Shown: positions 18,907 to 62,737 of the stretch, piece after piece
Layout of the letters: the number at the start of each line of letters is the position of its first letter
Numbering within the stretch: position 1 is the stretch's first letter
DNA from: Elusimicrobiales bacterium
Lineage (GTDB): Bacteria; Elusimicrobiota; Elusimicrobia; Elusimicrobiales; UBA9959
Direction of reading: 5' to 3'
DNA length: 64,000 nt
NCBI GenBank assembly: GCA_028688015.1
Contig: JAQTZB010000003.1
Span: forward strand, 248,001 to 312,000
Translations under genes and position numbers: made by a program
The notes under the pieces: generated by a model
What the model saw: only the letters and a program-made list of their open reading frames with translations
Told to the model about the DNA's origin: nothing
The model's database searches: none

Positions 18907-19268
18907 AGAAAAAATTCACCCTGCTGTTAGCCCTGCTGCTGCCGGCTGCGCTGTGCCTGCCGGTCTTCGCCGAGGACGCCGCCGCGCCCGCGGGCGAAAC
19001 CGCGGCCGAAGCCGCGCCCAAACCGGCCGCGAAGAAGCCGGCGCCCAAGAAGAAAGCCAAAAAAAAGAAGAAGAAGACGGCGCCCGTCTCCGAATACAAG
19101 TTCACCTCCGTAGAGAAGACGGAAACCTACAAGTTCGACAGGAAAGCCAACCCGATAGTGAAGCAGACCAAAAAAAAGGCCGCCCCCAAGAAAGCCGCGC
19201 CCAAGCCGGCCCCCGACAGCGTCGGCGTGGGCGGCGACGCCTCCGGCGCGGCCCCGGACGTGAACTGA
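18903..19268 (+). CDS. secreted Lys/Ala/Pro-rich protein
   Basis: MKKKFTLLLALLLPAALCLPVFA signal peptide; KKPAPKKKAKKKKKK tract. Confidence 0.65.
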   Translation: MKKKFTLLLALLLPAALCLPVFAEDAAAPAGETAAEAAPKPAAKKPAPKKKAKKKKKKTAPVSEYKFTSVEKTETYKFDRKANPIVKQTKKKAAPKKAAPKPAPDSVGVGGDASGAAPDVN

Positions 19269-54728: not shown

Positions 54729-57197
<2,469 letters not shown>

Positions 57198-62290: not shown

Positions 62291-62356
62291 GTAAAAAAAG
62301 ATTTTTAAAATATTTTAGTCCTGGGCCTTGACAAGTCAACAGGTGTCTGTTATACT
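62291..62356 (+). promoter_or_regulatory. strong sigma70-type promoter with A/T-tract UP-like element
   Basis: gtaaaaaaagatttttaaaatatttt; TTGACA 62328-62333; 17-bp spacer; TATACT 62351-62356. Confidence 0.85.
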
Positions 62357-62362
62357 CGATAT

Positions 62363-62737
62363 GTAGTCCTGCTCTTTTAATGGTTGCGCCGGTAGTGTGG
62401 GCCCCGCGGTCGAGGTGCGGTCTGGTGCGTGCGGTGTGTGTGTGTGTGGTTGCGGTGCGGTTGCGGTCGGGCCCTGCGGTGTGGTCGCGGTTGCGGTCGG
62501 TCGGGCGGTGTCCCGGCCCCGGCGTTGTCCCCGGTCCGCTGGCTCGCAGTTGGCGATGCGGTTCCCCCGGGGTCCCCGGTTCCTGCGGCGCGTTTGGCGC
62601 CCCGGTCCCGGGCGGGTGTTCCGGCCCTTCGGCGGCGTTTCGTGCCCCGTCGGTCCCCCGGTCCGCCCCCTGCGAAGTCGCAGTCCTGGCCTTGCGCCAG
62701 AGTGAAGAGCCCCCGCTTACGGGGGCTCTCGCTTTTT
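62363..62737 (+). ncRNA. predicted ~375-nt adenine-depleted structured ncRNA
   Basis: Between strong promoter and intrinsic terminator; boxA-like TGCTCTTTTAA at 62370-62380; 3 A's in 62395-62674; no credible protein. Confidence 0.7.
62707..62737 (+). terminator. intrinsic terminator of predicted ncRNA
   Basis: gagcccccg-ctta-cgggggctc then tcgcttttt. Confidence 0.85.

Follow-up and report, generated by a model that had tools for sequence, protein, structure and literature searches.

A clade-specific family of nearly adenine-free predicted noncoding RNAs with a boxA-like element and UGCGGU repeats in Elusimicrobia

The regulatory RNAs CsrB/CsrC and RsmX/Y/Z are free-standing, occur as several paralogs per genome, and repeat in a fast-changing arm a short motif that is also present in the leader of the target; CsrA, for its part, needs GGA. 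Structured RNAs normally use A for loops and tertiary contacts, and by established sequence rules AUG and Shine-Dalgarno signals need A as well. No natural RNA family that avoids one nucleotide is known to us from published descriptions, and searching the literature turned up none. The predicted RNA described here resembles CsrB/CsrC and RsmX/Y/Z in being free-standing, in having paralogs, in repeating a motif within a variable arm, and in sharing that motif with a leader, but its motif is UGCGGU and not GGA, it carries a boxA-like element, it is nearly A-free, and its partner protein is only postulated. Like the ornate large RNAs (GOLLD, ROOL, OLE) and further structured RNA classes without an assigned function, it is large, conserved, structured, and narrowly distributed; it differs from GOLLD and ROOL, which contain many A-minor contacts (PMC12286853), in having almost no A and in matching no Rfam family. 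One nucleotide is also left out of the laboratory three-nucleotide ribozymes of the R3C ligase lineage (PMC4192621), but these are artificial and cytidine-free, whereas the present RNA is natural and short of A. Finally, rRNA leaders and CRISPR arrays have boxA near the start of a long untranslated RNA (PMC5725501, PMC7862264), as this RNA appears to have, yet it is neither, its copies being independent units of 237-449 nt with their own terminator.

The RNA was predicted within a 64-kb stretch of DNA that was analysed whole (the window), downstream of gyrA, a MarC-family gene, and a lysozyme-like gene (the last without a Pfam match) and followed by a sulfatase on the opposite strand (Table 1). 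Its inferred 5' end falls at about 62363-62365, and its 3' end was placed at the terminator. The original prediction had counted by hand only three A's among 280 nt and two runs of 134 and 118 nt with none, and exact base counts bear this out: plus-strand positions 62395-62674 hold 3 A, 94 C, 120 G, and 63 T, and the runs at 62414-62547 and 62557-62674 are the two longest without A in the window, the next being 67 nt. Elsewhere in the window, no 280-nt stretch has fewer than 15 A (mean 50, sd 12), and among 300-nt control windows taken from the same loci (n = 5208), none has as little as 1.2% A. The A-poverty of this stretch is not due to chance, and the 63 T against 3 A make it strand-specific. 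The 14-bp direct repeat that had been claimed was located at 62457 and 62487 (GCGGTTGCGGTCGG). A second candidate, an A-free RNA on the minus strand at 18927-19268, was rejected as an ordinary plus-strand coding region; the 119-nt T-free run within it (18968-19086) encodes a lysine/alanine-rich stretch.

Table 1. Predicted features of the A-poor RNA locus (window coordinates unless stated otherwise)
Feature	Position	Strand	Remarks
TTGAC-AA-GTCAA palindrome over -35	62328-62339	+	candidate operator; -35 TTGACA = 62328-62333
-10 element TATACT, 17-bp spacer	62351-62356	+	conserved in family
Predicted A-poor ncRNA	62363-62737	+	homologs in 40 genomes
boxA-like antitermination element TGCTCTTTTAA	62370-62380	+	fixed-place motif in 86/88 copies
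P1 5' strand (UGCGCCGG)	62385-62392	+	covariation GCGYCGG/CCGRCGC in relatives; A2 helix 1
GGGCCC-closed variable arm	62399-62474	+	62399-62404 with 62469-62474; A2 helix 2, 97.5% of cells paired
UGCGGU repeat cluster, 7 UGCGGU	62416-62497	+	eighth at 62557; 11 GCGGU in whole RNA
P1 3' strand (CCGGCG)	62519-62524	+	
Conserved 3' domain, multi-hairpin	62527-62670	+	A-free except 62548 and 62556; covarying helices
Conserved 3' hairpin CTGGC-CTTGC-GCCAG	62686-62700	+	
Intrinsic terminator GUGAAGAGCCCCCG-loop-CGGGGGCUCUCGCUUUUU	62702-62737	+	near-invariant in family
Recurring -35 palindrome sites	window 62328-62339; loci L230, L231; own genome C39:114145, C50:78847		

Homologs were collected by searching the window's genome and its relatives with the DNA of the locus, which gave copies in the same genus, and with a promoter pattern, which gave more. 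Among the 88 copies collected, 83 have both ends; these at least 83 full-length copies come from four genera of one family-level clade of Elusimicrobia, usually one to four per genome; in the window's genome, a further copy lies on another contig (C44). A phylum-wide scan of 345 genomes for the promoter and 5' end pattern, in which the reversed control pattern gave zero matches, detected the RNA in 40 genomes, including 31 of the 32 of the window's genus, and found no copies outside the one clade. A covariance model of the 3' domain (R1), which does not depend on the promoter, found almost the same copies and likewise none outside the clade. This model mixes two subgroups and with only 19 pairs is mainly a sequence profile; run phylum-wide, it gave hits of which nearly every one fell on a known copy, and one weak new place (G010:C19:126743). 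It scored the 3' domain in the window at 80.1 bits (E 5.8e-11), this copy being itself a training member. The genomes are metagenome-assembled (MAGs), with 6.9% estimated contamination in the window's own genome and agreement among its relatives; the named carriers are Elusimicrobia MAGs, many from groundwater and lakes. A viral origin was rejected, as none of 15 promoter-like matches in viral contigs was A-poor. Four positions recur, after a polysaccharide deacetylase-like gene, the window's lysozyme-like gene, RecQ, and an epimerase (gene names assigned by eye), and no common functional theme was found among these neighbours. The recurrence of syntenic positions shows that the RNA has been inherited vertically at several loci. 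The family also seems to expand by local duplication. In one genome (G014, contig C9), two A-poor copies lie near tandem, ~830 bp apart (positions 1503 and 2331 of L026), and the same contig holds two more.

Because the single sequence folds no better than its shuffles (z = +0.68), with no clear excess on either strand, the case for a conserved structure rests on comparison of relatives and not on folding energy. Only the terminator survived alignment of the whole family with alifold, and subgroup alignments were needed; the order of parts is P1, variable arm, multi-hairpin core, 3' hairpin, and terminator. The P1 pair GCGYCGG/CCGRCGC occurs in C-G (10), U-G (8), and U-A (7) variants. Double-change cells numbered 37 against 9.9 in shuffles in one subgroup and 30 against 11.9 in the other, exceeding all 500 shuffles in both; these shuffles ignore relatedness, and we put weight on the effect size and on the agreement of the two subgroups. 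When the structures were slid along the alignments, pairing fell from about 97% to 41-56%. The original prediction had named codon-like conservation among homologs as an outcome that would count against it; conservation proved to be structural, with covariation and with indels between close copies that ignore the reading frame (68, 24, and 16 with lengths of 1, 2, and 0 modulo 3). Of the two local hairpins it had pointed to, ctggc-cttgc-gccag is conserved in general form, while tgcg-aagt-cgca is present only here and in the closest relative. Its central claim, a structured ncRNA that stands alone between a promoter and a terminator of its own, is strongly supported, with more than 80 homologs showing covariation, and we regard a clade-specific RNA family with conserved structure and under selection as very probable. 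The boxA-like element, UGCGGU as a repeated motif, the -35 palindrome, and the existence of a family had escaped that prediction.

The promoter, TTGACA-17-TATACT at 62328-62356, belongs to a pattern common to the family copies, in which a TTGAC-NN-GTCAA palindrome overlaps a consensus sigma70 promoter, the palindrome being present in nearly all copies. That at 62328-62339 is the sole TTGACNNGTCAA in the window (0.05 expected), and only four promoter-like sites in the genome have TTGACNNGTCAA at this spacing, two of which belong to the A-poor RNA family. The recurrent -35 palindrome looks like the operator of some regulator. It is seen at few promoters, namely those of A-poor RNAs, of an element upstream of ftcD, and of genes with signal-peptide-like starts. 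The ftcD-upstream element is an ncRNA-like conserved sequence of ~85 nt 5' of an ftcD-like gene (L004, L081-L083, and L088-L091; C40 ~118,540 in the window's genome), with its own promoter bearing the same TTGACAAGTCAA and a terminator ending CGCCAAAAGCGGG..TTTT; scanning three of its loci gave no Rfam match.

About 6 nt after the inferred start, the motif TGNTCT[TC]T stands in a fixed place in 86 of 88 copies, near the 5' end and matching the boxA of the host's rRNA, the rRNA leaders of the clade carrying TTTG[CT]TCTCTRAAAAATT and CGATCTTTCAAAA. The sequence GTTCTTTAAAA, found in one copy (L195), agrees with the boxA consensus published as GYTCTTTAANA (PMC5725501) and is identical to the boxA of the Legionella CRISPR array (PMC7862264). 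NusB is encoded in 6 of 6 genomes, and the element at 62370-62380 is probably a boxA. Promoters stand in tandem in the rRNA leaders at L211-L216, which also contain as many as two boxA-like elements (CGATCTTTCAAAA and TTTGYTCTCTRAAAAATTATG).

The family is also marked by UGCGGU, which occurs 254 times in the 83 copies as compared to 26.5 +/- 5 in dinucleotide shuffles, a roughly tenfold excess; 76 copies have it, 7 of 83 do not, and 25 of 83 have fewer than two. In the window, spaced UGCGGU pairs number 6 against 0.22 expected, all inside the RNA, and every triple-UGCGGU cluster in the genome sits, on the sense strand, in an A-poor RNA or in a c-di-GMP leader RNA. The leader RNA lies at a second locus (L003, 1369-1692; C43, about 55,950-56,275, in the same genome; homologs L233-L251) and comprises ~209 nt with 14 GCGGU and a long hairpin, a TTGACNNGTCAA palindrome (TTGAC-NN-GTCAA) standing upstream of its promoter; in 13 of 13 homologs tested, a c-di-GMP-I riboswitch is directly downstream. 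At L232, a glycosyltransferase-like gene follows the c-di-GMP leader region. The leader RNA and the A-poor RNA have no overall similarity and carry the same dense sense-strand motif, and because two dissimilar RNAs share it, we infer a common binding partner as the best explanation of UGCGGU in both; the tie between the two runs through the shared motif only. A short motif in many copies that is shared with a possible target leader is what a sponge would have. CsrB/RsmZ themselves are not a match by GGA in loops, the 134- and 118-nt A-free stretches holding none, and since CsrA needs GGA, it is excluded for the A-free part. Taken as a whole, the data may best be explained by a boxA-protected, multi-site RNA that titrates a putative UGCGGU-binding protein, a reading to which we give nearly an even chance, and a sponge or scaffold role as such we propose tentatively. 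Among the functions guessed in the original prediction, a large structured regulator fits best.

The alternative that survives best, although we consider it unlikely, is an RNA specific to this lineage that is architectural or catalytic, in the manner of the ornate large RNAs, or that stands in functionally for 6S RNA on RNA polymerase, with the UGCGGU repeats as structural parts, e.g., G-rich stacked elements. The RNA is large, structured, conserved, and present in several copies, and folding predictions leave its UGCGGU sites no more accessible than the remainder (unpaired 0.29 vs. 0.33). The original prediction had set it apart from RNase P RNA, tmRNA, SRP RNA, and 6S RNA and proposed an Rfam scan; Rfam 15 gives no match at the locus at gathering score and nothing credible at loose thresholds, where the best match has E 0.46. 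Bacterial RNase P RNA class A (RF00010) has no model match there, its true gene lying elsewhere in 6 of 6 genomes, and 6S RNA (RF00013) has no covariance-model match at the locus and was not found by its Rfam model in the six clade genomes searched, which would fit a stand-in. The literature on Elusimicrobia ncRNA and on UGCGGU yielded nothing relevant. However, the fold is multi-hairpin and not one long bulged hairpin, UGCGGU recurs in an unrelated leader RNA, the arm varies freely in length, and, with so little A, there is scope for few of the A-minor contacts by which GOLLD and ROOL are held together (PMC12286853).

Across the family, the sequences establish a strand-specific depletion: the 83 copies average 5.8% A and 24% T (U), with A below T in 83 of 83, as compared to a mean of 19.6% A in control 300-nt windows and to 24% A, and no depletion, in the 150 nt upstream of the RNAs. 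Genome composition does not explain it, because the RNAs are still 2-9% A where their flanks are 44-53% G+C with 23-30% A. On their own strand, the clade's RNase P RNAs contain 20-23% A, and its rRNA leaders, which also bear boxA, are A-rich; therefore, neither structure nor heavy transcription explains the depletion. Removal of AUG and Shine-Dalgarno signals suits an RNA that is never translated, yet ordinary ncRNAs do not go so far. It is quite possible, though we give it somewhat less than an even chance, that the family has been selected to exclude adenosine, as a structured RNA of nearly three letters (G, C, U) whose lack of A would in itself be what functions, conferring, e.g., invisibility to A-dependent RNA machinery or synthesis when ATP is scarce.

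A related reading is doubtful, namely that leaving out adenosine is the function, with the RNA made at ATP shortage, just when its activity is needed, or escaping an A-dependent nuclease, modification, or translation machinery. The depletion is indeed specific to A and extends over all of the RNA body that lies between boxA and its 3' end, whatever the genome's GC, but boxA, the 3' end, and the terminator hold conserved A, so the transcript is not ATP-free. Nor are UA (observed/expected 1.28) and CA steps rarer than the loss of A alone would make them. This argues against escape from a nuclease of the UA/CA type, and the earlier guess that the RNA avoids A/U-directed RNases is not favoured.

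A trans-acting base-pairing sRNA, its sequence set by its targets, would account for a free-standing unit with its own promoter, terminator, and conserved 3' end, but we think it improbable, as the conserved stretches are mostly paired and the arm is variable. Still less probable is a composition artefact, i.e., A-to-G loss, coupled to transcription, on the coding strand of a spacer that is transcribed at a very high level. Changes to A do differ between the strands, the low-frequency ones occurring at half the rate of their strand complement (G>A.0128 vs. C>T.0255; C>A.0092 vs. G>T.0181), and mutational strand asymmetry could add to their low rate; however, the A contents of the boxA-bearing rRNA leaders and of RNase P RNA argue against it, and covariation and sequence conservation show function. 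A protein-coding gene can be dismissed: open frames do span the region on both strands, but stop codons all need A and T, so that any stretch without A must be open in each of the six frames, the indels ignore frame, and the ATG at 62380 is not conserved among relatives.

The titrating RNA that we favour would work as follows. A strong sigma70 promoter, possibly regulated via the overlapping palindrome, would drive the predicted RNA, and boxA would load NusB/NusE so that the untranslated transcript is completed despite Rho, as for rRNA. The RNA would fold into a P1-closed scaffold paired by G-C and G-U and offer several UGCGGU sites to an RNA-binding protein, which would be titrated (sequestered) or scaffolded (organised) in the mode of CsrB/RsmZ with another motif; a likely regulated target would be the c-di-GMP-riboswitch leader, which has the same repeats in the same genomes. 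Without A, the RNA would carry no AUG, Shine-Dalgarno, or GGA signals and would avoid tertiary contacts that depend on A. The shared promoter, fold, and UGCGGU repeats point to a new kind of regulatory RNA and not to a quirk of composition. A conserved fold at about 5% A, even in genomes of ~50% G+C, is a natural test of three-letter RNA, and the family would add a boxA-bearing ncRNA beyond rRNA and CRISPR. The sharing of UGCGGU with a c-di-GMP riboswitch leader makes possible a direct search for the RNA-binding protein and its regulon.
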